From the NCBI GenBank assembly GCA_030603685.1, contig JAUVXG010000021.1, positions 1 through 39,504 on the forward strand: 39,504 bases of DNA, written 5' to 3'. Below the pieces are notes generated by a model. That model did not search any database. It worked only from the letters and a program-made list of their open reading frames with translations, and was not told the origin of the DNA. Below, one piece after another: positions 1 through 17,295 of the stretch. The DNA comes from Pleomorphomonas sp. GTDB lineage: Bacteria; Pseudomonadota; Alphaproteobacteria; Rhizobiales; Pleomorphomonadaceae. Position 1 is the stretch's first letter, and each line of letters begins with the position of its first letter. The translations under genes and the position numbers were made by a program.

Positions 1-1022
1 CGCTGCTGTTCCTCTTCGGCTGCGTTCTCCTCGTCATGAAGTCGGAGACGGCGAGTGCGGCCCTTGAGGCAATGGTGCTGGGCAGCGATGCGGCCGTTGA
101 CGTTGCGAGCCTGTCCACCGGCATGTTCGTGGCTTTCATCACGGCGTTCGGGCAGGTATCCGCCGCGCTGACGGGGACGATCAATGCGGTGTCCGAGCTG
201 CTCACCATCAACCCGCTGATCGCCCGGACGATGCCGATCGTCGAGGCGGAGCCGGAGATCTCACGGGAGCGGGAGGCTCCGGGCAGGCTTTCCGGCGAGA
301 TCGCCTTCAACAGGGTGCACTTTCGCTACTCGCCCGACGGCCCGTTGATCCTGCGGGACGTCAGCTTCCACATAAGGCCGGGGGAATACATTGGCATCGT
401 CGGCGAATCCGGGAGCGGCAAGTCGACCATCATGCGTCTCCTTCTCGGCTTCGAAACGCCGGAAGAGGGGGGGCTGCTGTTTGACGGCAAGCCGTCGGAC
501 CGGCTCGATCCAACGCTGCTTCGCAAGGAAATCGGCGTTGTCCTGCAGAATGGGCGCATCACGCCGGGTTCGATCTACGAGAACATCGCGGGAGCCTCCG
601 GGCTCGGTCTGGAGGCGGCATGGGCCGCGGCCAGGCTGGTCGCTCTCGCGCCGGATGTCGAAGCCATGCCCATGGGCATGCACACGATTCTGAGCGACGG
701 CGGCGGAGCGCTTTCAGGCGGCCAGCGGCAACGAATACTGCTCGCCCGCTCACTGGTGAACGAACCCAAGATCCTGCTTCTCGACGAGGCGACCAGCGCC
801 CTCGACAACCGGACCCAGCAGGTTGTGACGGATACGCTGGCCCGGCTGCAGGTGACCCGGATCGTCATCGCGCATCGGCTTTCCACCATCCGCGAGGTCG
901 ACCGTATTTTCGTCATGGACAAAGGCCGCCTCGTCGAAAGCGGTACCTACGACCAACTGATCGAGGCCGGGGGGCTTTTCCACGCGCTCGCCCGTCGCCA
1001 ACTCCTGGAGAACGAGGCCTGA
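1..1022 (+). CDS. NHLM-type peptide exporter ABC protein, C-terminal part (5' partial)
   Basis: The gene is open to the left edge (frame from base 3), so only the end of the last membrane segment and the ATPase domain are present. The ATPase has Walker A GESGSGKST, a Q-loop (VVLQNGRITPGSIYENI), signature LSGGQRQR, Walker B ILLLDEATSALD and switch His in IAHRLSTI. The stretches AMPMGMHT and SDGGGALSGG and the ending ALARRQL are characteristic of the second ABC protein of NHLM (nitrile-hydratase-leader microcin) export systems, which move leader-bearing RiPPs out of the cell. It overlaps the next gene by one base (TGATG), implying translational coupling. The peptidase-bearing partner ABC protein usual for this family should lie upstream of the window. 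The Nif11-type precursors about 3.3 kb downstream are the obvious substrates. The family call is firm; the substrate is inferred. Confidence 0.88.
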   Translation, partial: LLFLFGCVLLVMKSETASAALEAMVLGSDAAVDVASLSTGMFVAFITAFGQVSAALTGTINAVSELLTINPLIARTMPIVEAEPEISREREAPGRLSGEIAFNRVHFRYSPDGPLILRDVSFHIRPGEYIGIVGESGSGKSTIMRLLLGFETPEEGGLLFDGKPSDRLDPTLLRKEIGVVLQNGRITPGSIYENIAGASGLGLEAAWAAARLVALAPDVEAMPMGMHTILSDGGGALSGGQRQRILLARSLVNEPKILLLDEATSALDNRTQQVVTDTLARLQVTRIVIAHRLSTIREVDRIFVMDKGRLVESGTYDQLIEAGGLFHALARRQLLENEA

Positions 1023-1567
1023 TGCGCAAAGTGCTTTACATCCTTGGGCAGCTCGATGACGAGGATATCGAGTGGATGGCCCGCACGGGGCGGCGGTTCG
1101 CGGCGGCGCCGGGGCAGGTCCTCATTCGCGAGGGCGAACTGGTCAGCGATCTCTTCTTCGTCCTGTCGGGCGAGGTCGCGGTGACGGTTTCCGGTGTCGG
1201 AGAGGTTGCCCGCCTCGGCCGCGGCGAAGTCGTGGGAGAGATGTCCCTGGTGGACTCGGCGCCTCCGTCCGCCACGGTACAGGCTGCCGACGGAGCCTTT
1301 ATCCTGGCGGTGGACAAATCGGACCTGCAGGCCCGGCTCAATGAAAACCCGGCCTTCTGCGGACGTTTCTACAAGGCATTGGCAATCTTCCTCGCGGACC
1401 GCTTGCGCAACACCACCCAGCGCATGAACTCTCGCAGTGGGCTCAAGGCCGGAGCGGTGATGGAAGACGAGCTGGATGACGGCATTCTCGACACGATATC
1501 GCTGGCAGGCGCTCGTTTCGAACACATGTTGACCCGCCTGTCCCGCAGCGAGGAACACCCGACATGA
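1022..1567 (+). CDS. Cyclic nucleotide-binding-like domain protein linked to exporter
   Basis: A 181-residue soluble protein with a cNMP-binding beta-roll at about residues 20-110. Hallmarks are DLFFVLSGEVAV and the phosphate-binding cassette VVGEMSLVDSAPPSATV. The cassette keeps GE, but the arginine that normally contacts the cyclic phosphate (PRSATV in active members) is Pro82 here, so ligand binding may be lost. There is no DNA-binding helix-turn-helix; the C-terminal 70 residues are helical and acidic. The start ATG overlaps the ABC gene stop, and the stop overlaps the following gene by four bases, so the three are one translational unit. Small cNMP-domain proteins recur beside NHLM exporters, where a role in exporter control or assembly can be inferred but is not proven. 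Confidence 0.75.
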   Translation: MRKVLYILGQLDDEDIEWMARTGRRFAAAPGQVLIREGELVSDLFFVLSGEVAVTVSGVGEVARLGRGEVVGEMSLVDSAPPSATVQAADGAFILAVDKSDLQARLNENPAFCGRFYKALAIFLADRLRNTTQRMNSRSGLKAGAVMEDELDDGILDTISLAGARFEHMLTRLSRSEEHPT

Positions 1568-1905
1568 TGACGGATGGCTTTCTCGTTTCCCTGGCGCTCC
1601 TGATCTTCGGTCATGCGCTCGGAGATTATCCGCTGCAGACCGATTTCATGGCGCGCGGCAAGAACTGGAAGACGCCGGTACCGGGCGTGCCCTGGTACTA
1701 TCTGCTTGGCGCGCATTCGATCGTGCACGGTGGGCTGGCGGGGCTTGCGACAGGCTCGCTCCTTGTCGGAATTCTGGAGACTGCGGCTCATTTTTTGATT
1801 GACTCGCTCAAGAACAGCGGGATTATTTCCATTCATGCAGATCAGGCGCTGCACATCGCATGCAAGGTCGTTTGGGTGGCAATGCTGGTCGGTGGCTTGA
1901 TCTGA
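1564..1905 (+). CDS. DUF3307 family small membrane protein
   Basis: A 113-residue protein with three or four hydrophobic segments and the DUF3307 signature HALGDYPLQTDF near the N-terminus, then HSIVHGG and AAHFLIDSLK. The histidines and aspartates inside membrane helices (HALGD, HFLID) are typical of the family, whose biochemical role is unknown. It begins inside the stop of the cNMP-domain gene (ATGA overlap), so it is co-translated with the exporter. It could assist export or processing of the peptide product, but nothing in the sequence proves this. About 105 bp without a gene separate it from the AraC regulator. Confidence 0.7.
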   Translation: MMTDGFLVSLALLIFGHALGDYPLQTDFMARGKNWKTPVPGVPWYYLLGAHSIVHGGLAGLATGSLLVGILETAAHFLIDSLKNSGIISIHADQALHIACKVVWVAMLVGGLI

Positions 1906-2010
1906 AAACGTATTTAATCTTGAACCGCCCGTTACTCGCATTCCTTGACGCTTTGGCTCAGTTCCGATTGGCCGCGTGAAGAAAGTGAATACCTGTAGAG
2001 AGCGATCCAG

Positions 2011-3045
2011 GTGACCGATAGCCAAATTGAATACCAGCTGATCCGTTCGTCGGACTTGAGTCCTGAAGAAAACTACGAGCGGTGGCGGATTGGCGTGTCC
2101 AGCCTGTTCGACGCGGTACCGGCAACGGACGGGCTCGACGGCTTCAGGGCCGACCTTGCAAGTTACAATCTCGGGCATTTCCTGATCGGCAAGTCGTCGG
2201 CGGTCGCCCAGCGCTTTCATCGTTCGAGCGAACTGGTGGCGGCGACCGGCGTCGATCACCTGCTGATACAGTACTATGTCAACGGTCAGTGCGCCTATAA
2301 CGCCGACGGAGGGCTCGCGAGGGGCGTTGCTGGGGACATCGTCTGTTTCGATCTGAGCCGGCCGATGCGCAGCCAGACCACGGACATGGATATCATCAGT
2401 CTGATCCTGCCGCGCGCGATGATCCGGCTGATGCCTCGGGTCATAGACGAGCTTCACGGCGCGCGGTTGGATGGCTCCTCCACGCTTGGAACCCTACTGG
2501 GCGAACATATGCTGACGATGGCCAAGCTTGCGCCGCAGCTTGCCGGCCCGGATGGAAAGCTGGCGGCCGATGTCGCGTCCGTGCTCGTGTCGAGCGGTCT
2601 TTCGGCCGCGGTGGCCGCCGAGCGCGGTACGCTCATGGATGCCAGCCTTCAAACGATCCAGGTCTTTATCGAGCGCAATCTGACCAACCCGTCTCTTTCG
2701 ACGGAAATGATCATGCGGCAGTTTGCCTTGTCGCGCTCGGCTCTCTACCGCCTGTTCGAACCGCTCGGTGGCATCGCCGACTATATCCGCGAGAGGCGGC
2801 TGAAACTCGCCATGCTGAAGCTTGCCTCGATCGGGACGTCGCGAGGGTCAGTCGCAAAACTCGCCTATGCGACCGGATTTGCCAGCGAGAACGCGTTCTC
2901 CCGCGCGTTCCAGCAATATTATGGCCTTCGCCCGAGCGAAGCGATCCGGAACGCGCGGGACGGCATTCGTCTGAAGACCGATATCGGTTCTCATGAGAGC
3001 AACTGGATGCAGGCCTGGCTCGACAAACTGCACGCCAAAGCCTGA
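2011..3045 (+). CDS. AraC family transcriptional regulator
   Basis: A 344-residue protein with a GTG start preceded by AGAGAG (1997-2002). The N-terminal about 200 residues look like the AraC-binding-like sensor domain (MTDSQIEYQL, ENYERWRIGVSSLFD, then LIQYYVNG and GDIVCFDLSRPM). The C-terminal about 100 residues form the two-helix-turn-helix AraC DNA-binding domain (LSTEMIMRQFALSRSALYRLFE, IRERRLKLAMLKL, VAKLAYATGFASENAFSRAFQQYYGLRPSE). It lies between the exporter operon and the acyltransferase/precursor genes, all on the same strand. It is therefore the likely local regulator of peptide production, although the inducer cannot be read from the sequence. Confidence 0.88.
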   Translation: MTDSQIEYQLIRSSDLSPEENYERWRIGVSSLFDAVPATDGLDGFRADLASYNLGHFLIGKSSAVAQRFHRSSELVAATGVDHLLIQYYVNGQCAYNADGGLARGVAGDIVCFDLSRPMRSQTTDMDIISLILPRAMIRLMPRVIDELHGARLDGSSTLGTLLGEHMLTMAKLAPQLAGPDGKLAADVASVLVSSGLSAAVAAERGTLMDASLQTIQVFIERNLTNPSLSTEMIMRQFALSRSALYRLFEPLGGIADYIRERRLKLAMLKLASIGTSRGSVAKLAYATGFASENAFSRAFQQYYGLRPSEAIRNARDGIRLKTDIGSHESNWMQAWLDKLHAKA

Positions 3046-3179
3046 ACGGCGAGTTTCTGCTCCTCTCCCGGCATCCTATCCCAAACTCCGCCGATATTGT
3101 CCCAAGAGCACGTGCCCCGCTTTATTTCCTGACTGAGTAAAGCCACATAGCCTGCGAGACAGGACGGAGAAGCTACGGC

Positions 3180-4175
3180 ATGCTCGCGGAGGCACAGACA
3201 CGATTGCGCGCCGGGCCACAGGCGCCAACCGACCATGCGGCGAAGCAACCCAGGGCGTCTTTCCCGGTGCTCAGGGGCCATGCGGGGCTTTTCTCCTCGT
3301 TTACTTTCGGACAGATCGGCCGGTTGCTTGCGCCGCTACGGGATGATGTCATCGCGGTTGGTGTCATTGTCGGTGCGCGTCCGGTCGGGCTTGCAGTCGG
3401 CACGCTTCCGTCTGGAAGCACAGAGGCCGAGCTGCTCTCGATCGCCGTTGCCCCGGCGTTACGCAGGCGGGGGCTTGGAAGACGTCTCCTTGAGGCCTGG
3501 CAGACGGAAGCACACGAGCGCGGGGCTGCCGAATGCCGGGCGAGCTACAACGGCTCCATATCGGGTCGGATGGCTTTGGAAGGCTTGTTGGCACGAGGCG
3601 GATGGACAAGCCCTCGCGCCAGCGGCGTTGTCGTGGTTGGTCGCGTTGGAAAAATGGTCGACGAGGTCGGTACCTGGCCCAGCATAGCCGGCCGCCTCGC
3701 CCTGCCTCGATCATATGCTTTCGCTCCTCTGGAGTTGAATGCCGCGGACATCGAGGCGGTCGAGCGCTATCTCTCGGATCCGGAGGCGGCGGACATGTTG
3801 GGACCGATCCGCAATGCAGAGCAACTGGCGCCCGACTACAGCATTGCCATTCGCCGTGACGGCCAACTCGTTGGCTGGCTGCTTGCAACCGAGTCCCACC
3901 GCCCCCTTGTCGAAGGGGACGCCGACGTGCCGACGGTCCGCTATCTGGAAGCCTATCTCGATCCGGCCTATCGAGAGGGGGGGATCATGGTCGGGGCCTA
4001 CTACCATTGCTACGCGAGGCAGATGGCGCTGCTTGGTCGGGACTCCGTCGCGGTCTACTACACCAGCTACGACAGTCGCCCGCGCATGGTGGCCCTGACT
4101 CTGCGCCGCTTTGCACCGATCGCCGAACGTGTCGAAACGATCTTCGGCGCAAGCCGTTGTTTGCCGTCGTTCTGA
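3180..4175 (+). CDS. Two-domain GNAT acyltransferase, candidate RiPP maturase
   Basis: A 331-residue protein with one clear GNAT acyl-CoA-binding motif at about residues 86-108 (LLSIAVAPALRRRGLGRRLLEAW). A second GNAT-like half follows (about 180-331), with YLEAYLDPAYREGGIMVGAYYHCYARQ read in two parts as a degenerate motif A. GNAT enzymes move an acyl group from CoA or a carrier protein to an amine. In selidamide-type RiPP loci such proteins attach fatty acids to lysine or ornithine side chains of Nif11/NHLP-type precursors. Here the enzyme sits 133 bp upstream of two Nif11-type precursors whose cores contain lysines. The Shine-Dalgarno region (AGGACGGAGAAG, 3161-3172) closely resembles that of the first precursor. 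The acyl donor and target residue are inferences; a generic acetyltransferase is the alternative. Confidence 0.8.
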   Translation: MLAEAQTRLRAGPQAPTDHAAKQPRASFPVLRGHAGLFSSFTFGQIGRLLAPLRDDVIAVGVIVGARPVGLAVGTLPSGSTEAELLSIAVAPALRRRGLGRRLLEAWQTEAHERGAAECRASYNGSISGRMALEGLLARGGWTSPRASGVVVVGRVGKMVDEVGTWPSIAGRLALPRSYAFAPLELNAADIEAVERYLSDPEAADMLGPIRNAEQLAPDYSIAIRRDGQLVGWLLATESHRPLVEGDADVPTVRYLEAYLDPAYREGGIMVGAYYHCYARQMALLGRDSVAVYYTSYDSRPRMVALTLRRFAPIAERVETIFGASRCLPSF

Positions 4176-4308
4176 CGTCGGTTGACTCGCGAAAGACGTC
4201 TCGGAACCTGCAGGTTGATCAATTGCGAACTGACGGTCTCTTCAACTCAGGCATTGTTGCCCATGTCGGCGAGGCATTCAAAGCAAAACAAGAAGGACGG
4301 AGAATTAC

Positions 4309-4605
4309 ATGAGTATAGATTCTCTTCTGAAGTTCTACGAAAGCGTTCGCGCTGACCCGGAGCTTGAGGAGCTCGCGGCGAGCGCCCTTGAAGATGGGCC
4401 GGAGGCTCTCGTCGTCTTGGGGATGTTGAGGGGATTCGAGTTCACTGAAGAAGAGCTGTCGGCCGCATTGTCGCATCGGTCGATCCTGACGGACGGCGAG
4501 CTTTCGGACGCGGATCTCGATCTAGTCGCCGGTGGCGGGCGCACCAGCTCCGAGCATTTTGCCGAGAAAAATCACATCAAGACAAGACCGGCGTCTTCCG
4601 GTTGA
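4309..4605 (+). CDS. Nif11-type RiPP precursor peptide 1
   Basis: 98 residues. The leader (1-76) is acidic and helical with the Nif11 pattern: LLKFYESVRADPELEEL near the start, EDGPEALVVLGMLRGFEFTEEEL, then SDADLDLVAGG. The VAGG end is the double-glycine cleavage site used by NHLM/C39-type export peptidases. The remaining 22-residue core is basic, has no cysteine, and carries lysines at residues 87 and 91 (EKNHIKTRP) plus five Ser/Thr. It is preceded by a strong ribosome-binding site (AAGGACGGAG, 4293-4302). The start is supported by alignment to precursor 2, which shares the leader but not the core. The absence of Cys argues against lanthionine or sactionine rings, while the lysines fit side-chain acylation by the adjacent GNAT. 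Confidence 0.85.
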   Translation: MSIDSLLKFYESVRADPELEELAASALEDGPEALVVLGMLRGFEFTEEELSAALSHRSILTDGELSDADLDLVAGGGRTSSEHFAEKNHIKTRPASSG

Positions 4606-4617
4606 CCCACCGGGAAG
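4595..4617 (+). promoter_or_regulatory. Weak hairpin over the stop codon of precursor 1
   Basis: CTTCCGG (4595-4601) can pair with CCGGGAAG (4610-4617) with one bulged G, enclosing an 8-nt loop that contains the end of the stop codon. No T-run follows, so it is not a classic terminator. It might stabilise or partially end the precursor 1 transcript before precursor 2. Confidence 0.22.
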
Positions 4618-4829
4618 CGGCGGTTCTGAGACATGTTTTCTGGCAGCGGGGAGCCGACGCGTCTGTCACGACCTTCGCCTCGTACGCCAGAGCCACTCCA
4701 GCAGAAGCGAAACGGCTCTGCCTGCGGAGTTGCGTCCTGCCACTGAGAGGGAGTTTGCGGTGAGCCTGACTCGCCGTGACGTTCTGACTCAAGTTGGCCC
4801 CTCCGCCGATGAGGAGGGGAGAGTTTTGA

Positions 4830-5117
4830 ATGGAGCGATACATCATGAGCATTGAAGCTTTGGAGCAGTTTTACGACAAGGTTCGGGCGAGCGAAGCGCT
4901 GGAGGCTGAGGCCACGGCGGCCATGCAGGAGGGACCGGCCGCGGTCGTTGCCCTGGGCGCCCGTGAGGGGTTCACTTTCTCCGAGGAAGAACTCGCGGCT
5001 GGGTTGGCAAAGCTTTCAAACAGAGAAGAGCTGTCCGAAAAGGATCTCGACCTCGTCGCGGGCGGAGTTATTGCGCACCCCTACAACCCAACCAAGTTCG
5101 GTAAAGTACTCTACTGA
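4830..5117 (+). CDS. Nif11-type RiPP precursor peptide 2
   Basis: 95 residues. The leader aligns with that of precursor 1 (SIEALEQFYDKVRASEALEAE, EGPAAVVALGAREGFTFSEEEL, SEKDLDLVAGG) and ends at Gly79. The 16-residue core (VIAHPYNPTKFGKVLY) shares nothing with core 1 except two lysines (89 and 92) and the lack of cysteine. It has only one Thr and no Ser, so dehydration-based rings are very unlikely. ATG 4830 has an ideal upstream GGAG (4818-4821, 8-nt spacer). A second in-frame ATG at 4845 matches the start of precursor 1 and has its own GGAGCG at 4832-4837, so either may be used. It lies 224 bp after precursor 1 and presumably uses the same GNAT and exporter. Confidence 0.83.
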   Translation: MERYIMSIEALEQFYDKVRASEALEAEATAAMQEGPAAVVALGAREGFTFSEEELAAGLAKLSNREELSEKDLDLVAGGVIAHPYNPTKFGKVLY

Positions 5118-5402: not shown

Positions 5403-6002
5403 ATGCCGTCATGGGACGAAGAGTTCTCGAAGCCGGGCTACCGCTATGGCACGGAGCCCAACAGTTTCCTCGTCGAGATGGCGGGGCGCCTTCCGAAGGC
5501 TTCGCGCGTCATTGCCGCCGGTGATGGCGAGGGACGCAACGGCGTTTGGCTGGCCGGCCAGGGGCACCGCGTCCTGGCGCTGGACGCATCCGCCGTCGGG
5601 CTTGCCAAGGCACGGGCGCTGGCCGAGGAGCGCGGCGTTTCGATCGAGACGGCCATCGTCGATCTCTCGACATACGCGCCCGAGGCGGCAAGCGCCGACG
5701 CGGTGGTGCTGATCTACGTTCATATGCCACCCGCCGTCCGTCGTGCCGCCCACCGCAATCTGGCGAGCGCCCTGAAGCCGGGCGGCCTGATCATTCTGGA
5801 GGCCTTCCACCGCGATCAGCTTGGCCGGTCGAGCGGCGGACCAAAGGACATTGACATGCTGTTCGACCTCGCGCTTCTCGCCGAGGACTTCGGGCCGGAC
5901 ATCCGTGTCGTCCATGCGTTCGAAGGTGAGGTCGAACTCGACGAGGGGCGCGGCCACGTTGGCAAGGGCGCCATCGTCCGCTTCCTCGGCGTCAAGGTCT
6001 AG
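5403..6002 (+). CDS. Class I SAM-dependent methyltransferase (TehB-like)
   Basis: 199 residues with a Rossmann methyltransferase fold. Motif I is VIAAGDGEGRNGVWLA (residues about 36-51), where Ala and Asp replace the usual Gly/Cys of GCGEGRN. The acidic residue ending strand 2 is in VLALDAS, and the post-I region reads ADAVVLIYVHMP, then LKPGGLIILEAF. The family includes tellurite-resistance-type and small-molecule thiol or metalloid methyltransferases; the substrate cannot be read. An AAGGA ribosome-binding site (5390-5394) supports the ATG. It follows the RiPP precursors on the same strand but after a 285-bp gap, so a role in peptide tailoring is possible but unproven. It converges on the persulfide-reductase gene. 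Confidence 0.8.
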   Translation: MPSWDEEFSKPGYRYGTEPNSFLVEMAGRLPKASRVIAAGDGEGRNGVWLAGQGHRVLALDASAVGLAKARALAEERGVSIETAIVDLSTYAPEAASADAVVLIYVHMPPAVRRAAHRNLASALKPGGLIILEAFHRDQLGRSSGGPKDIDMLFDLALLAEDFGPDIRVVHAFEGEVELDEGRGHVGKGAIVRFLGVKV

Positions 6003-8597: not shown

Positions 8598-8660
8598 CCT
8601 GGCTCTTTCTGTTATGAATGTATGTGCATAACCCGATTGTGCGGGCGCAGGTCAACCTAT

Positions 8661-8682
8661 ATTATGGGTATATTCTCATAAT
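8661..8682. promoter_or_regulatory. 22-bp palindrome in divergent thioesterase / NifX-like promoter
   Basis: ATTATGGGTAT (8661-8671) and ATTCTCATAAT (8672-8682) form an inverted repeat with 9 of 11 positions matching (outer ATTATG/CATAAT perfect). It sits 64 bp from the thioesterase start and 52 bp from the NifX-like start. A second copy of its core is at 7993-8013. It looks like a dimeric repressor or activator site; the regulator is not identified. Confidence 0.55.
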
Positions 8683-8734
8683 TCGCCGGGTCAGCGGGAC
8701 AGGCCAGTCATCAGCCAACAGCAGGAGCCGTACG

Positions 8735-9073
8735 ATGAAGGTCGTTTTCACCATGCAGGGCGATGGACGCGACGGCCTCCTCGACCGTCGGTTCGGGCGC
8801 GCCGAGACGTTCCTGGTTTACAACAGCGAGACGGACGAAAGGCGGCTGGTTGCCAACTCGGCCGTCGGCGCCGCAATGGGCGCCGGTCTCAAGGCGGCAG
8901 AGGCCATCGTCGCGCTGGGCGCCGTCGCACTGGTGACGGGCGAGTGCGGTGTCAAGGCCCTGCACGCTCTCCAACGGGCCGGCGTCAAGGTCTACTCCAC
9001 CGACAGCGCGACCTTTGCCGATGCTCTCGATGACCTGCGGCAGGGGAGCCTTCGTGAGGCGCATCCGGCATGA
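8735..9073 (+). CDS. NifX / dinitrogenase iron-molybdenum cofactor domain protein (orange-protein-like)
   Basis: 112 residues making up one NifX/NafY domain: MKVVFTMQGDG start, LLDRRFGRAETFLVYNSETDE, then GAGLKAAEAIVALGAVALVTGECG and GVKVYST. The domain binds metal-sulfur clusters in nitrogenase maturation proteins and in the Desulfovibrio orange protein (a Mo-Cu-S protein). The start at 8735 is chosen because AGGAG (8723-8727) lies 7 nt upstream and the domain begins at this Met. It overlaps the first MinD-type ATPase gene by four bases, and a second follows likewise. No nitrogenase genes are in the window, so a role in a metal-sulfur cluster complex outside nitrogen fixation is more likely. 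Confidence 0.85.
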   Translation: MKVVFTMQGDGRDGLLDRRFGRAETFLVYNSETDERRLVANSAVGAAMGAGLKAAEAIVALGAVALVTGECGVKALHALQRAGVKVYSTDSATFADALDDLRQGSLREAHPA

Positions 9074-9906
9074 GGATCGCCATCGCGTCGGGCAAAGGAG
9101 GCACCGGCAAGACCTCGGTTGCGGTCAATCTGGCAGCCATCGCCGGCCGCTCCGTCACGCTGGTCGATTGCGACGTGGAAGAGCCCAATGCCCATATCTT
9201 TCTGAAGGGTGCCGCTGCCACCACCGAGACGGTCTCGATGAAGGTTCCGGTCATCGATGAAGAGCGTTGCACCGGCTGCCGTACTTGCGTCGAGTTCTGC
9301 GGCTTCAACGCGTTGATCTCCTTTGGAGGCGCGCCGCTGTTCTTTCCTGACCTTTGCCACGGCTGCGGTGGCTGCCGCCTCGTCTGTCACGCCGGGGCCA
9401 TCGGTGAGGTGCCCCGCGCCCTCGGCGAGGTCAGACGCATCGATGCTGCCCCCTGCACTCTGGTGGAAGGCCGCCTGGAAGTGGGCGTGTCGTCACCGGT
9501 GTCGGTGATCAAGGCGACCAAGGCGGCCGCAAAGGGCGACTTTGTCATCTACGATGCGCCGCCGGGAACGTCCTGTCCGTTGGTCGCCACGCTACGCGAT
9601 GTCGATTACGTGCTGCTGGTCACCGAGCCGACACCGTTCGGCCTGTCCGACCTTCGCCTGACAGTGGAGGTCCTTCGCCAGATGAACGTGGAGTTCGGTG
9701 TCGTCATCAATCGCGCCGTCAAATCCGAGAGCCTGATCCACGACTACTGTCACCATGAAGCGATCGAGGTTTTGGGCGAGATCCCCGAAGACCGAAGAAT
9801 AGCTGAGGCGTATGCCGCCGGTCGGCTGATCGTCGACGCTCTTCCGGGCTACCGCCTGCTGTTTCGTTCGATCCTGGAAGCCTGCCTGGAGAGGGTGACG
9901 GCATGA
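9070..9906 (+). CDS. MinD/Mrp-family ATPase with inserted ferredoxin domain (1)
   Basis: A 278-residue P-loop ATPase of the deviant Walker A class (SGKGGTGKTS, residues 7-16, with the signature Lys9). DCDVEEPN follows and YDAPPGTSCP is the switch region. Between them is a 2x[4Fe-4S] ferredoxin insert at about residues 58-112, with CTGCRTCVEFC and CHGCGGCRLVC. Proteins of this build assemble or transfer metal-sulfur clusters. Two of them beside a NifX-domain protein is the arrangement of the orange-protein complex genes in sulfate reducers and of related anaerobe loci. ATGA overlaps at both ends show tight coupling with the NifX-like gene and the second ATPase. Confidence 0.88.
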   Translation: MRIAIASGKGGTGKTSVAVNLAAIAGRSVTLVDCDVEEPNAHIFLKGAAATTETVSMKVPVIDEERCTGCRTCVEFCGFNALISFGGAPLFFPDLCHGCGGCRLVCHAGAIGEVPRALGEVRRIDAAPCTLVEGRLEVGVSSPVSVIKATKAAAKGDFVIYDAPPGTSCPLVATLRDVDYVLLVTEPTPFGLSDLRLTVEVLRQMNVEFGVVINRAVKSESLIHDYCHHEAIEVLGEIPEDRRIAEAYAAGRLIVDALPGYRLLFRSILEACLERVTA

Positions 9907-10793
9907 AGGAGCTGATCATTCTTTCGGGCAAGGGCGGAACGGGCAAAACCAGTCTGACCGCCTGCTTTGCATCTCTGGCGCGCCCCGCCGTGCTGGCGGA
10001 TTGCGATGTCGACGCCGCCAACCTTCATCTGATCCTCGCGCCCGAGACCGAGCGTTGCGAAACCTTCAGTGCCGGCCGGGAAGCGCATGTTCGGGCCGAT
10101 GCTTGCCGTGGCTGTGGGCGGTGCGTCGCCGCCTGCCGCTTCGACGCCATGAGATTGGCTGGCCTACACGGCACGGCCACGGTCGATCCGCTCGGTTGCG
10201 AAGGGTGCGGCGTTTGCGCTTTCGTCTGCCCGACCGACGCGATCGCCTTCAAGGAGCGCATGGTGGGATCGGTCATGACCTCGCGGACGCGGTGTGGCGC
10301 CATGGCCCATGCCCGTCTCACGCCCGGGTCCGACAACTCCGGCAAGCTCGTCTCCTGGGTTCGCCAGCAGGCGCGTCGACTGTCGGTGGAGGAGAAGTGC
10401 CAGCTTGTTCTGATCGACGGGCCTCCCGGTCTCGCCTGTCCGACGATGGCGGCGCTTGCCGGGTGCTCGCATGCTCTGATCGTGATCGAGCCGACGATGT
10501 CCGGCTTGCACGACCTTGATCGCATCCTTGCGCTCACACAGCATTTCGAGGTGTCGACTTCCGTCTGCGTCAACAAATGGGACATAGATGCGGAAAAGAG
10601 CGTCGCCGTCGAACGGCGCGTCCGGGCCGCAGGGGGGCATTTCGCTGGGCGCGTACGTTACGACAGCGGCGTCACGCAGGCTCAGATGCGCGCGCGGACG
10701 GCCGTGGAGGACGATACGGCCTCAGCCGCGGACATCCGCTCGGTTTGGCGGCAGGTGGCGGGGCAGATTGCGATGGCCGAGACTGGGTATTGA
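9903..10793 (+). CDS. MinD/Mrp-family ATPase with inserted ferredoxin domain (2)
   Basis: 296 residues and a paralogue of the preceding gene. The deviant Walker A is SGKGGTGKTS (8-17), followed by DCDVDAANLHL. The ferredoxin insert has CRGCGRCVAAC and CEGCGVCAFVC followed by Pro, as in bacterial 2[4Fe-4S] ferredoxins. The ATPase core continues with LIDGPPGLACP and VCVNKWDID. The sequence is divergent enough from its partner to suggest a heterodimer instead of a recent duplication. The pair likely uses ATP hydrolysis to load or move a metal-sulfur cluster for the NifX-like protein. It is the last gene of the three-gene unit; a 409-bp non-coding region follows. Confidence 0.88.
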   Translation: MKELIILSGKGGTGKTSLTACFASLARPAVLADCDVDAANLHLILAPETERCETFSAGREAHVRADACRGCGRCVAACRFDAMRLAGLHGTATVDPLGCEGCGVCAFVCPTDAIAFKERMVGSVMTSRTRCGAMAHARLTPGSDNSGKLVSWVRQQARRLSVEEKCQLVLIDGPPGLACPTMAALAGCSHALIVIEPTMSGLHDLDRILALTQHFEVSTSVCVNKWDIDAEKSVAVERRVRAAGGHFAGRVRYDSGVTQAQMRARTAVEDDTASAADIRSVWRQVAGQIAMAETGY

Positions 10794-13278: not shown

Positions 13279-14838
13279 ATGTCCCCACGAGCGGTTCTGC
13301 GGGTTGTCGCGTTCCTCGTTGCCAGTTCGGCATTCGCCGCCGCCGCGGCGGGCACCGCCGATCACTCGAGGTTCGGCGTCCTCAAGGGGCCGTTCGCCAC
13401 AGCAGAGGACGTCACCAAGGCTTGCTCGACCTGCCACACCGAAGCGGCCGGCGAGGTGAAGAAATCGATCCACTGGACCTGGGACGGGACGAACTCCTTT
13501 ACCGGCCAGAGACTCGGCAAGCCCCGGATCATGAACAGCTTCTGCGGCTCGCCGATCTCCAACGAGCCGCGCTGCACTTCCTGTCACGCCGGCTACGGCT
13601 GGACCGACCTGCGCATGACCCCGGAAGAGAATGGCGCGACGGTCGATTGTCTGGCCTGCCATGACGGGTCCGGTACCTACAAAAAGACCGCGACGGATGC
13701 CGGCCATCCGCTTTACTCGCCGCGTGTCATTGGCGGCGTCACGGTCGAGCCGCCGGATCTCGCCAAGGCGGCCATGAGCGTCGGCCCGTCGCAGCGGGAG
13801 AATTGCGGCGCATGCCATTTCAATGGCGGCGGCGGCGATGGCGTCAAGCATGGCGACCTCGACAGTTCGCTGACCGACCCGCCGCGCGATCTCGACGTGC
13901 ACATGGCTGCCGATGGCGCCAACATGGCCTGTTCGACCTGCCATACCTTCAACGCCCACATCCCCTCCGGCTCGCGCTATATGACGACGGCGGTCGATCG
14001 GCACGGCCTTGATCTGCCGCACGACGACCACAGCCGCGCGACCTGCGAGTCCTGTCACGGCTCGACACCGCATGCCGAAGCCAAGATCAACGATCACACC
14101 GACCGTGTCGCCTGCCAGAGCTGCCACATTCCCGAGTTCGCCCGCGGCGGCGTCGCCACCAAGACGCTCTGGGACTGGTCGACCGCCGGCCGCAAGGATG
14201 CGAACGGCAAGCCCGTCTACATCAAGGACGAGCACGACCATCTCGTCTACTCGGCCGAGAAAGGCGACTTTGCCTACGGCGAGAACGTCCGTCCGGCCTA
14301 TCTCTGGTACAACGGCACGATCGAGCAGACCGCGATCACCGACAAGCTCGACGGCAAGGTCAAGGACGGCGTCCTGACGCTCAACCGCATCGGCGGCAGC
14401 CCGACGGACGGCAAGTCGCGCATCTGGCCGTTCAAGGAGATGAAGGGCAAGCAACCCTACGATCCGGAGCTCAACACGCTGGTCGTCAATCATGTCTTCG
14501 GAAAGGACGACAGCGCCTTCTGGACCAACTTCGACTATCCCAAGGCAATCGCCTTCGGCATGAACTACGCCGGGCTGCCGTGGAGCGGCAAGTTCGGCTT
14601 CATCGAAACGCGCATGTACTGGCCGATCACCCACATGGTCGCTCCGAAGGAGAAGGCCGTCCCCTGTTCGGACTGCCACACCCGCGATCCCGAGGGGCGT
14701 CTCGCCGGGCTCGGTGGCTTCTACATGCCCGGCCGCGACGGCTCGCGACTGCTCGGCATTGTCGGCTATCTCGCCCTGTTCGGTGTGGTCGTCCATGGCG
14801 GCCTGAGGATCGTCCTCAGGGGAGGGCGCCGGTCATGA
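13279..14838 (+). CDS. Octaheme c-type cytochrome, tetrathionate reductase (Otr) family
   Basis: 519 residues with an N-terminal Sec signal peptide (RAVLRVVAFLVASSAFAAAAAG). There are exactly eight CxxCH haem sites: CSTCH, CTSCH, CLACH, CGACH, CSTCH, CESCH, CQSCH and CSDCH. Other family hallmarks are WTWDGTNSFTGQRLGK, MNSFCGSPISNEPRC and AYLWYNGTIEQ. A C-terminal membrane helix (LLGIVGYLALFGVVVHGGL) anchors it to the inner membrane facing the periplasm. Shewanella Otr reduces tetrathionate and also nitrite and hydroxylamine in vitro; the physiological substrate here is unproven. The start at 13279 is preferred over GTG 13252 because the signal peptide begins there. It overlaps the cytochrome b gene by four bases, so the pair forms a quinol-to-haem electron route. 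Confidence 0.9.
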   Translation: MSPRAVLRVVAFLVASSAFAAAAAGTADHSRFGVLKGPFATAEDVTKACSTCHTEAAGEVKKSIHWTWDGTNSFTGQRLGKPRIMNSFCGSPISNEPRCTSCHAGYGWTDLRMTPEENGATVDCLACHDGSGTYKKTATDAGHPLYSPRVIGGVTVEPPDLAKAAMSVGPSQRENCGACHFNGGGGDGVKHGDLDSSLTDPPRDLDVHMAADGANMACSTCHTFNAHIPSGSRYMTTAVDRHGLDLPHDDHSRATCESCHGSTPHAEAKINDHTDRVACQSCHIPEFARGGVATKTLWDWSTAGRKDANGKPVYIKDEHDHLVYSAEKGDFAYGENVRPAYLWYNGTIEQTAITDKLDGKVKDGVLTLNRIGGSPTDGKSRIWPFKEMKGKQPYDPELNTLVVNHVFGKDDSAFWTNFDYPKAIAFGMNYAGLPWSGKFGFIETRMYWPITHMVAPKEKAVPCSDCHTRDPEGRLAGLGGFYMPGRDGSRLLGIVGYLALFGVVVHGGLRIVLRGGRRS

Positions 14839-15488
14839 GCCATAAACGCGAGGTGATGATCTACACGCGCTACGAGCGCTTCTGGCACTGGTCGCAGGCA
14901 GTCCTCGTCTTCACCCTGTTCTTCACCGGTCTTGCCATTCATGGCACTCACGACCTTGTTCCGTTCGGTCTCGCGGTCAAGATCCACACGAACGCGGCCC
15001 TGTTGCTGATCGCGCTCTGGGTGTTCACGACCTTCTGGAACTTCACCACCGGACAGTGGCGCCAGTATCTCTTCAAGAAGGGGGTGTTCAGGGTCATCCG
15101 CTTCTACGCTTGGGGCATTCTCTTCGGCGAGCCACATCCCTACAAGAAATCCCTGCAACGCAAGCAGAACGCCCTGCAGTCGCTGGCCTACATGACCTTC
15201 ATGACGCTGATCGGGCCCGCCCTGTGGTCGACCGGCATCGCCTATTTTCTCTACAACTCCTGGAGCCACTACGCCTGGGCGGGGACCGGGCTCTGGGCCG
15301 TTGCGTTGCTGCACACCGCCGCGGCCTTCGCCATGGGGGCCTTCGTCATCGTGCATGTCTACATGACGACGACCGGCAAGACGCCGCTCCACTACGTCAG
15401 GACGATGGTCACCGGCTATGACAGCATCGAGCTGACCGAGGTCGAGGAAGCCTACATCGAGGAGACGAAATCGACGGAGATGCGGTGA
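14835..15488 (+). CDS. Membrane cytochrome b subunit for octaheme cytochrome
   Basis: 217 residues with four main membrane helices and the di-haem cytochrome b561/formate-dehydrogenase-gamma pattern. Candidate haem-ligand histidines are His18 (RYERFWHW), in KIHTNAALLL, in LLHTAAAFAMG and in VIVHVYMTTTGKTPL. It would oxidise quinol and pass electrons to the octaheme partner, whose gene stop overlaps this start (ATGA). The C-terminal tail (about 25 residues, Glu-rich) is cytoplasmic. It converges, with a four-base gap, on the FNR-like regulator gene. Confidence 0.86.
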   Translation: MSHKREVMIYTRYERFWHWSQAVLVFTLFFTGLAIHGTHDLVPFGLAVKIHTNAALLLIALWVFTTFWNFTTGQWRQYLFKKGVFRVIRFYAWGILFGEPHPYKKSLQRKQNALQSLAYMTFMTLIGPALWSTGIAYFLYNSWSHYAWAGTGLWAVALLHTAAAFAMGAFVIVHVYMTTTGKTPLHYVRTMVTGYDSIELTEVEEAYIEETKSTEMR

Positions 15489-15492
15489 TCGA

Positions 15493-16212
15493 TCACTCGC
15501 CACCGGCTGCCAGGCGGGCGAGTATCGTGACGTTGCAGCGGCAGCGCCCCGGCGATACGTCTACGATCGCGCCATTCCGGCGGAAATCGGTCACCATCCT
15601 GCTGGCGTGCTCCGGCGTTACCGCGAGCATGGCGCCCAGATCTTCGCGCGAGAACAGGGGGGCCAGGCCGTTGGCGTCGACCATGCGGCGGAGCAGGCGG
15701 GACAAGCGCTGCGGCGCCTTGCCGGTGGAGAGCTCGGTCAGCCACGCATCGGCCTCTTCCAGGGCTATTTGCCAGCGGCGCATCAGTTGATCGTGCAGGG
15801 CGGGGGTGGTTCGACGCAGGCCGTCGATGGCCGCCGTCGAGATCCTGCACACTGCCGCCCGCTCCAGACCGACGGCGCTATGCCCGTAGGCGTCTCCCAC
15901 CAGCGCCTCGAGGCCGAATGTGCAGGATGGCTTCAGGAGGCGAACGATCCGTTGCTGACCGTCGGGCAGGAAACGCAAGTGCTTGATGTAGCCGGATCGC
16001 AACGTGAAGACGGACGAGCGCCGCTCGCCGGTCGAATAGATGACGTCACCGACCGCGTATTCGGCTTCTTCGACCTGGCGAAGGAGCCCATCGAGACGGT
16101 CGGTGGGCAGGATGCCGAATAGCGAGCGCTGGCGCACCGGACAAACCTCGCAACGACTGCCATGGCCGAACGTTGGCGTCGCTTCGTGTCTGTTCGGTAT
16201 TTCCAGCATCAT
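15493..16212 (-). CDS. Crp/Fnr family regulator with partial Fe-S cysteine set
   Basis: 239 residues with a cNMP-fold sensor (DVIYSTGERRSSVFTLRSGYIKHL, residues about 56-80) and a winged helix near the C-terminus (SREDLGAMLAVTPEHASRMVTDFRRNGAI). Cysteines at 21, 24 and 122 correspond to three of the four FNR [4Fe-4S] ligands (E. coli 20, 23, 122). The equivalent of E. coli Cys29 is missing (Ser30); Cys97 could substitute or not. It sits tail to tail with the octaheme cytochrome operon and is the natural candidate for its oxygen or redox control. Two adjacent ATGs (16210-16212 and 16207-16209) could start translation. The family is certain; the sensing mode is inferred. Confidence 0.87.
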   Translation of the reverse strand: MMLEIPNRHEATPTFGHGSRCEVCPVRQRSLFGILPTDRLDGLLRQVEEAEYAVGDVIYSTGERRSSVFTLRSGYIKHLRFLPDGQQRIVRLLKPSCTFGLEALVGDAYGHSAVGLERAAVCRISTAAIDGLRRTTPALHDQLMRRWQIALEEADAWLTELSTGKAPQRLSRLLRRMVDANGLAPLFSREDLGAMLAVTPEHASRMVTDFRRNGAIVDVSPGRCRCNVTILARLAAGGE

Positions 16213-16359
16213 CGACCCTTGGTTGTCGTGGCCAGGACTCCGGCATCGGGACTCGGTCGCGCCTTGCCTGCCACGATGAGCCGCCAGCTTCCATCATGCG
16301 GCACGCTACCTTCTCGACCGGAAGACGCCTATCCGGCAATTGGATGTGCCGCATCGGCA

Positions 16360-17295
16360 TCATGGCAACGGGCTTTGGCTATCTTGCTGCCGACGATCGG
16401 CGATCCAGCGCCGGATCAACTGTGCGATCATGCGAAATCCGGCCGCGCGAGGCGACTGCCGCCGCCAGACGAGCCCGATGGTTCGGCTGTTGGCGCCCTC
16501 TGCCAACGGGATGGCCGCTACCCTGTGTTCGGAGAGCAGGCCCCCAGCCACCGCAAGCTCGGGGAGCAAGGTCGAGCCGAGCCCCTCGGCCACCATGGCC
16601 GCCAGCATGTGCAGGCTGGTCGCCGAATACGCCGCATCGGAGATGTTGGGCCACGTCGCAAACACCGGCAGGGCGTGACGATGCAGGCAGTTCTCCCGCT
16701 CCATGAGCATTATCTCTTCAACCGGCAACCGGGCGGCCTCGACCTCGGCGAGGGCTGCGAGCGGATGATCGAGCGGACAAACAAAGCGGAACGGATCGTC
16801 GAACAGCATTTCGATCTCGAACGGACCGATGTCATAGGGGAAGGCCATCAGAACCAGGTCGAGCCGTCCATCGGCAAGGCGCTCGATCAGCGCCGGCGTC
16901 TTGTCTTCCCGGAGGCCGAACACCAGGTCGGGCAGGTGCTGGCGGGCAAACGGCAAGAACCGTGGCAGCAGAAAGGGGCCGACGGAGGGAATGCAGCCGA
17001 GTTCGATCCTGCCCGCCAATGGGTTGCTGGCCATCTTGCCAAGACCGAGCAACTGCTCGGTCTCATGCAGTATGCGGCGCGCCTGCTCGACAATCCGCAG
17101 TCCGTCGGGCGTCACCATGACAGATCGTCGGGTCCTTTCCGCCAGCCGCACGCCCAAAAGGGATTCCAGCTCGGCAATCCCGGCGCTGAGCGTCGATTGC
17201 GAGACGTTGCAGGCTTCGGACGCTCTCCGGAAATGTTTCTGTTCGGCCAGCGCGATCAGAAAAGTGAGATGGCGGATGTTGGGGTAGGGCTGCAT
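16360..17295 (-). CDS. LysR family regulator (1), paired with SLAC1 channel
   Basis: 311 residues. The N-terminal winged HTH is FLIALAEQKHFRRASEACNVSQSTLSAGIAELESLLGVRLAER, read as the usual LysR block. The effector domain resembles OxyR-type sensors (LGCIPSVGPFLLPRFLP, LVLMAFPYDIGPFE). It has a Cys in ENCLHRHALP, at the place where OxyR-like proteins carry a reactive Cys; a function for it is not established. It is divergent from the SLAC1 gene, with a T-N11-A site between them. It is clearly paralogous to the LysR gene at 18398-19321, which shares the YPNxRHL start and IPxxGPxLLPRxxP. Confidence 0.9.
   Translation of the reverse strand: MQPYPNIRHLTFLIALAEQKHFRRASEACNVSQSTLSAGIAELESLLGVRLAERTRRSVMVTPDGLRIVEQARRILHETEQLLGLGKMASNPLAGRIELGCIPSVGPFLLPRFLPFARQHLPDLVFGLREDKTPALIERLADGRLDLVLMAFPYDIGPFEIEMLFDDPFRFVCPLDHPLAALAEVEAARLPVEEIMLMERENCLHRHALPVFATWPNISDAAYSATSLHMLAAMVAEGLGSTLLPELAVAGGLLSEHRVAAIPLAEGANSRTIGLVWRRQSPRAAGFRMIAQLIRRWIADRRQQDSQSPLP

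Follow-up and report, generated by a model that had tools for sequence, protein, structure and literature searches.

What is made by the genes at the start of this Pleomorphomonas contig, and does the GNAT protein encoded among them modify the peptides encoded beside it? The window considered here (the whole analysed stretch of 39,504 nucleotides) makes up the opening 39.5 kb of contig C167 in a draft genome of 4.75 Mb that is 96% complete; G numbers below denote genomes (G000 being the window's own), C numbers contigs and L numbers opened loci. From base 3 onwards, the plus strand encodes in order the C-terminal part of an NHLM ABC2 exporter subunit, a cyclic-nucleotide-binding-like (cNMP-like) protein, a DUF3307 protein, an AraC-family regulator, a GNAT and the Nif11-type precursors A and B (Table 1). 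A preliminary description of this DNA had recognised the NHLM exporter, the GNAT and the two precursors with VAGG leader ends on one strand, and NCBIfam and Pfam matches confirm their placement. On sequence grounds, this is a real and conserved locus for ribosomally synthesized and post-translationally modified peptides (RiPPs); in this Pleomorphomonas-like alphaproteobacterium it forms the Nif11 arm of a larger RiPP cluster. Its product is best explained, with modest preference, by a lanthionine-free pathway of the selidamide type: the GNAT would acylate a core lysine, and the NHLM system would cleave and export the peptide.

The link between GNAT and precursor, which the preliminary description proposed as part of an NHLM-exported RiPP system, is borne out at several scales. 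When the window's own genome was searched with the window GNAT and all 19 candidates were scored, three genes were retained at E 1e-3, each beside a precursor: on C167 the window gene, on C207 a second GNAT paired with Nif11, and on C189 a third that accompanies an NHLP precursor (weak matches from E 1e-7 to 1e-3 were left out except for the C189 family). Across the genus, the GNAT is found in 4 of 14 genomes and Nif11 leaders in the same four (Fisher p 0.001, shared ancestry ignored), and all 13 Nif11 leaders found in the genus adjoin a member of the window GNAT family. A lack of such co-occurrence in relatives had been named at the outset as grounds against the proposal; the two gene types were found together. 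Among 25 opened NHLM/alphaproteobacterial GNAT loci, drawn from profile searches and a first plasmid search (G786, a match of 54 base triplets, was left out), precursors lie within about 6 kb in 22, comprising 20 loci with 34 readable cores and two (G437 and G784) with eight precursors of another kind. The first precursor of L034 was missed by the motif and added by hand, as were those of L076-L080. No precursor was detectable near the GNATs of G778, G777 and G652, all three of which adjoin NHLM genes.

Of four further plasmid loci, two (from Mesorhizobium) contain Nif11, and two encode cyanobacterial TIGR03032 proteins and lack a precursor. In the former, Nif11 stands beside the GNAT in both loci opened, out of five Mesorhizobium/Aminobacter matches (H13, H14 and H16 were left out), and their two cores are not counted among the 34. 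The latter, GNAT-like matches on Nostoc and Gloeothece plasmids, were rejected: they are segments of TIGR03032 proteins, no precursor is annotated in their vicinity, and they show no RiPP link. In G265, a full-length GNAT family member (C1:298109-298954, E 2.5e-33, with one internal TGA) has two Nif11 leaders (L082, at C1:300853, and L095) at a distance of about 2 to 4 kb. The L082 core begins with lysine after VAGG, like the Mesorhizobium cores.

Two trivial readings of this co-occurrence were considered and rejected. Nif11 is not ubiquitous, being found in 11 of 289 genomes of the class (own genome included) and in 4 of 14 of the genus. A full-length GNAT family member is known in two of those 11, the own genome and G265; the other nine gave matches to the N-terminal P-loop region alone, or none at E 1e-5. 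Nor does the GNAT appear to be an ordinary one: a wide profile matched at least 7 of 397 genomes of the order at E 1e-15, and a narrow profile at least 2 of 385 genomes of the class at E 1e-12, own genome included in both. These tallies are lower bounds: scoring was limited to the five best candidates of each genome, and G265 escaped the narrow profile. In a tree of 24 GNATs, the window protein, those of G013 and G005, a second G005 copy, the C207 protein and Shinella GNAT1 form one clade (support 100/98), and the Pleomorphomonas NHLP-arm GNATs form another with Shinella GNAT2 (99/96).

The gene order is also conserved. A tblastn search with eight window proteins shows the same order in G006 (L032), G013 (L034) and G005 (L035), all of the same genus; L034 has three Nif11 genes versus two in the window. 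The order is likewise kept from the cNMP end onwards in L045, a 3.8-kb contig labelled as a Propionivibrio metagenome-assembled genome. Gene by gene, L045:1-3783 is 73-94% identical to the Pleomorphomonas operon, and its assignment to Propionivibrio is probably a binning error, or else reflects transfer. The complete plasmid p1 of Shinella sp. H4-D48 carries FecR, cyclase, HlyD, ABC1, ABC2, cNMP, DUF3307, AraC, GNAT, Nif11 and radical SAM genes, with an NHLP precursor and GNAT2 convergent to this main run; its proteins from HlyD to AraC are 60-79% identical to their counterparts in the window genome.

The preliminary description had suggested that the link of AraC, cNMP and DUF3307 genes to such a locus may be new. 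For the cNMP gene it is not, since TIGR03896 is already curated as a 'bacteriocin-type transport-associated protein' (NCBIfam). The association of the other two is conserved: AraC is 92-99.7% identical in the three relatives and L045 and 78% identical in Shinella, and DUF3307 is kept in the same four loci and is 70% identical in Shinella. The presence of both in Pleomorphomonas and Shinella loci therefore makes them cluster members in Pleomorphomonadaceae and Rhizobiaceae.

The fuller cluster of the relatives adds TPR, FecR, CHASE2 cyclase, HlyD, C39-ABC1 and full-length ABC2 genes and a divergent arm. This arm, beside the TPR gene in G006, G013, G005 and the own genome, comprises a C39-ABC, an ABC, a SulP transporter, a further GNAT and one or two NHLP precursors; in the own genome it lies on C189, with the TPR end outside the covered stretch. 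Contig C219 of the own genome encodes C39-ABC1, HlyD, cyclase and FecR proteins that are 96-99% identical to those of G006, and 622 amino acids of ABC2 that end at the contig edge. As read from these contigs, the real cluster extends past the start of the window contig, onto C219 and C189.

By the same comparison, a complete NHLM exporter (HlyD, C39-ABC1 and ABC2) is present in the relatives and is split over contigs in the own genome. All three subunits of L032 exceed their cut-offs, at 255.1 bits for TIGR03794 (HlyD), 907.0 for TIGR03796 (C39-ABC1) and 728.4 for TIGR03797 (ABC2). In the own genome, ABC1 is over the cut-off on C219, where HlyD and the N-terminal part of ABC2 are 98% identical to L032. 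The window's ABC2 fragment has TIGR03797 as its best NCBIfam match (487.5 bits, model positions 372-686) and falls below the whole-protein cut-off of 709.4 because the contig start cuts the gene; its 959-residue ortholog in L032 is 100% identical across the window's 339 residues. The C39 region of the C219 ABC1 keeps Cys-, His- and Asp-containing stretches that presumably represent its peptidase motif. In G513, an outer-membrane efflux protein adjoins HlyD/ABC1. Stand-alone GNAT-Nif11 cassettes were observed at L038:2571-4056, L037:9362-10852 and L036:8531-10413, with no NHLM exporter match within the stretches examined. Since C219 is the sole place in the own genome where ABC1 exceeds the cut-off, these cassettes probably use the C219 exporter in trans.

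Is lysine the acceptor? The leaders of orthologous precursors are 67-99% identical (84-99% for precursor B against four orthologs) and the cores 13-95%. Lysine occurs in 33 of the 34 cores from the 20 GNAT loci, where the lysine frequency of proteins encoded nearby (2.5%) would predict 13.0. Collapsing the cores at 60% identity leaves 27, of which 26 contain lysine versus 10.4 expected, a count reached in 0 of 20,000 simulations, and in 3 of 20,000 with lysine set to 5.5%. In core A orthologs the first lysine occupies position 11 or 12, and in core B it falls between positions 8 and 10; 32 of the 34 cores have one within the first 20 amino acids. Among 13 control Nif11 cores from other genomes of the class (G110, G166 and G335), lysine is found anywhere in nine and within the first 20 residues in three; this control leaves out the G265 core, which begins with lysine and has a GNAT family member nearby, and 12 of 27 control loci gave no motif open reading frame (ORF). 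The early position still separates the groups when a lysine-free GNAT clade, described below, is included (32 of 42 within the first 20 residues versus 14 control cores, p 0.002).

The closest precedents are found among lipidated lanthipeptides. The nostolysamide system (npu, Nostoc punctiforme) shares with the window-type loci a Nif11-leader precursor, a GNAT with an N-domain P-loop and a C39 transporter; according to the sections of PMC13060382 used here, its tandem GNAT NpuN acylates Lys1 of the precursor NpuA, with a clear P-loop in the N domain and no consensus P-loop in the C domain. The adduct is kept with K3A and lost with K1A, Lys1 alone being acylated, and nostolysamide activity is not significantly changed by acylation (PMC13060382). 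Core-lysine acylation is thus described for npu, whereas at the window locus it is predicted from sequence. The npu cluster also has LanM and lanthionine rings, whereas LanM was not found in the window genome, and the window-type operons have two or three precursors, mid-core lysines in place of Lys1, and an NHLM exporter with cNMP, DUF3307 and AraC genes. The phaeornamide cluster (pha, Pseudophaeobacter arcticus) is likewise an alphaproteobacterial GNAT RiPP system with dedicated transporters, but its precursor is of the NHLP type, it includes a peptide arginase, LanM and a hydroxylase, and the acyl group is on hydroxyornithine (PMC9505594, in the portion available). Like the window, the Mesorhizobium plasmid loci have a Nif11 precursor and a GNAT in one run, the GNAT being a distant one (22-24% identity with that of G778), and an NHLM exporter is annotated in L120. 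They differ (L119:7011-11890, L120:6979-18139) in having a radical SAM epimerase, a second radical SAM protein, and long cores that start with lysine right after VGG.

LanM was searched for directly. The LanM model TIGR03897 gave no match in G000 at E 1e-3, and over 18 genomes G652 alone exceeded the cut-off, with a weak match below it in G437; none of seven opened plasmid regions has a LanM annotation. DUF4135 was uninformative as a LanM test, giving no match even in controls. By the LanM test, the window locus is not a class II lanthipeptide cluster. The known NHLM export system (TIGR03794, TIGR03796, TIGR03797 and TIGR03896) is represented by three subunits over cut-off in L032 and by a TIGR03896-like protein in the window. 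LanM-free GNAT clusters are already in print: cluster 1 in a sequence similarity network of NpuN relatives combines Nif11/NHLP leaders with a GNAT and mostly an ABC transporter, lanthionine synthetase not always being present, and section 9 of that paper describes no product of a LanM-free GNAT cluster (PMC13060382, as far as the sections used here go). What is new is therefore the conserved architecture and the minimal GNAT-only form, rather than the idea itself.

The proposed pathway would proceed as follows. The Nif11 leader would guide the GNAT to the precursor, and the GNAT would pass an acyl group to the side-chain amine of a core lysine, the group most probably being a fatty acyl donated by coenzyme A (CoA) or acyl carrier protein. 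The candidate acceptors are K11 or K15 in core A and K10 or K13 in core B; by analogy with NpuA, acylated at Lys1 alone according to the portion of its description used here, one of the two lysines in each core is the likely target. The C39 domain of ABC1 would then cut after VAGG, and the resulting linear lipopeptide would be exported by the ABC1/ABC2/HlyD complex by way of an outer-membrane channel. Expression or export would probably be under the control of AraC and of the CHASE2 cyclase/FecR/TPR module together with the cNMP-like protein.

Several observations weigh against this pathway, beginning with the cores. One core in G688 lacks lysine, and in the divergent GNAT clade of G437 and G784, which belongs to the same GNAT family, none of eight cores has lysine and all have cysteine. 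With that clade included, lysine anywhere in the core no longer distinguishes the GNAT loci (33 of 42) from the control (10 of 14; p 0.42). The control is itself weak, being small, from few genomes and with longer cores. Related cores are also not independent, and shared ancestry makes all the lysine p-values optimistic. The core lysines do not stand at position 1, unlike that of NpuA. By gene content the locus is a candidate selidamide pathway, its GNAT being a putative relative of PhaN, KamN and NpuN. The lysine-free cores of G437 and G784 mean that the lysine argument holds for the window's own clades and not for the whole GNAT family, for which the lysine acylation put forward in the preliminary description should not be assumed. 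The precursors of these two genomes (L053:8367-9621, 15995-16366; L114:8109-9214, 14681-14950) have Nif11-like leaders ending in ELVAAA in place of VAGG, short cores and an adjoining NHLM exporter, and constitute a distinct pathway.

The GNAT itself raises further doubts. It had been described as a two-domain protein; Pfam matches its N-terminal domain alone (PF00583), and a second GNAT domain is weakly suggested by a single hhalign comparison of the C half with the N half (54.7%, E 1.2e-4). The C half has no consensus P-loop by eye, and an AlphaFold model from an eight-row alignment is poor (mean pLDDT 37.9). In the N-terminal domain, R95 and G98 of the acyl-CoA P-loop are invariant in the 13-row alignment A2; in the 24-row alignment A3, R95 is invariant and G98 nearly so. 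The G006 GNAT (L032:9918-10913), absent from both alignments and 95% identical to that of the window, has Arg for Gly at position 98, which also counts against the proposal. The precursors and exporter of G006 look intact despite this Arg98.

Some of the same facts favour a different chemistry. The GNAT might add a short acyl group such as acetyl, or act on the N-terminal amine rather than on lysine, for maturation or self-protection: ordinary acetyltransferases match its N-terminal domain, acetyltransferases make up most of the PDB matches listed, and the G437 and G784 cores require another acceptor in that clade. This alternative deserves some weight and yet appears rather doubtful, given that lysine is retained in 33 of the 34 cores from the remaining 20 loci though most ortholog cores change, and that the GNAT belongs to a precursor-linked family. 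It is unlikely, if compatible with lysine acylation, that the GNAT is a late tailoring enzyme following modifications by enzymes encoded outside the operon. Radical SAM genes in the relatives point that way and count against the favoured pathway: one adjoins Nif11 in Shinella, and the Mesorhizobium loci combine a radical SAM epimerase and a C-methyltransferase with GNAT and Nif11. The ORF lists of the window and L032 show no such gene next to the Pleomorphomonas precursors, LanM being the sole maturase family searched genome-wide.

The peptides could also be exported unmodified, as linear bacteriocins or signals, with the GNAT acting elsewhere. Sequence itself proves no modification; the co-occurrence of GNAT and precursor, including in the stand-alone cassettes away from the exporter (L036, L037 and L038), makes this quite improbable. 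That the gene order is a product of chance or of a mis-assembled contig end was worth considering for a window that begins at a contig edge, and is refuted by the same order on contigs of 921,629 and 1,291,810 bases in other assemblies and on a complete plasmid. Acylation of a core lysine by the GNAT, followed by NHLM cleavage and export, thus remains the favoured account.

How the locus might be regulated is suggested by its surroundings. The window's cNMP-like protein scores 147.7 bits against the TIGR03896 cut-off of 161.05, with the second half of the model alone covered. It differs from the known family in being half-length and below cut-off, and in having Pro (in the stretch PPSAT) for the Arg expected in the phosphate cassette; Pro (PPSAT/PPSAS) is found at that position in all four exporter-linked orthologs compared (window, L034, Shinella and Ensifer), whereas Arg is present there in the SulP-cNMP proteins of both L033 and L042. 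If cAMP acts here, it would therefore more likely bind the SulP protein or a distant regulator. In the NHLP arm, L033:7198-9375 encodes a fusion of SulP, STAS and cNMP domains and is flanked by a C39 exporter gene on one side and the second GNAT gene on the other. What are presumably the metal-binding Asp and adenine-specifying Lys/Asp stretches are preserved in the cyclases of L039, L054 and Shinella, and the CHASE2 domain was checked on the L054 cyclase. Cyclase or FecR/TPR genes also lie near the GNAT loci of Ensifer, G513, G688 and G778. A Burkholderia biofilm operon is described as pairing FecR with CHASE2, alongside a histidine kinase (PMC5192318, in the part consulted), so the sensor pairing itself is not new. 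No paper pairing NHLP with CHASE2 was found, and among the matches listed, NHLM and adenylate cyclase occur together only in headache-congress abstract books, judged by title. DUF3307 and Pleomorphomonas are absent from the literature matches listed, from a search that most subscription journals lie outside.

Table 1. Genes of the Nif11 arm at the start of the window
Feature	Position	Strand	Matches and remarks
NHLM ABC2 ATPase/permease subunit, C-terminal 339 aa	3..1022	+	TIGR03797 (NHLM_micro_ABC2); gene cut by contig start
Half-length cyclic-nucleotide-binding-like protein, TIGR03896-like	1022..1567	+	cNMP_binding; TIGR03896 147.7 bits
DUF3307 protein	1564..1905	+	PF11750 31.7 bits; start overlaps cNMP stop
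AraC-family regulator, GTG start	2011..3045	+	PF14525 and HTH_18
GNAT, putative peptide N-acyltransferase, 331 aa	3180..4175	+	PF00583 44.6 bits at 62-116; C-terminal half divergent
Nif11 precursor A, leader end DLDLVAGG, core GRTSSEHFAEKNHIKTRPASSG (22 aa)	4309..4605	+	TIGR03798 50.6 bits
Nif11 precursor B, leader end DLDLVAGG, core VIAHPYNPTKFGKVLY (16 aa)	4845..5117	+	TIGR03798 50.5 bits

Both precursors exceed the cut-off of the Nif11 leader model TIGR03798 (32.3 bits), and AAGGACGGAG is found upstream of the ATG of precursor A. The methyltransferase gene at 5403-6002 was considered as a cluster member and rejected, with no tblastn match in the G005 locus and no annotation in the Shinella locus; judged on these comparisons, it probably lies outside the cluster. 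Third-position GC is 0.67-0.70 in the DUF3307, GNAT and precursor genes versus 0.75-0.82 in the ABC2, cNMP, AraC and methyltransferase genes. Further along, window positions 8618-10793 hold a small ORF and then two ORFs with a KGGTGKT nucleotide-binding motif, in a row.

A broader picture may be offered tentatively, and could well prove wrong in part or whole: an alphaproteobacterial family of lanthionine-free lipopeptides in which the GNAT would be the sole maturase, with twin head-to-head arms (Nif11-GNAT and NHLP-GNAT) around a TPR/FecR/CHASE2-adenylate-cyclase module, stand-alone cassettes feeding a single exporter, hypervariable cores around a kept lysine, and export or transcription gated by cyclic nucleotides. 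Were this so, the cysteine-containing, lysine-free cores of G437 and G784 would represent a sister pathway with a different acyl acceptor. Ribosomal lipopeptides are described as rare (PMC9505594), and the side-chain-acylated examples as lanthipeptides (PMC13060382), in the portions of those papers used here. A minimal pathway of GNAT and leader would, if confirmed, show that a single enzyme is enough to lipidate a core that varies freely, and would be a useful system for engineering and for probing what lipidation does. The conserved adenylate cyclase, FecR and cNMP surroundings also make the regulation of NHLM export directly testable.

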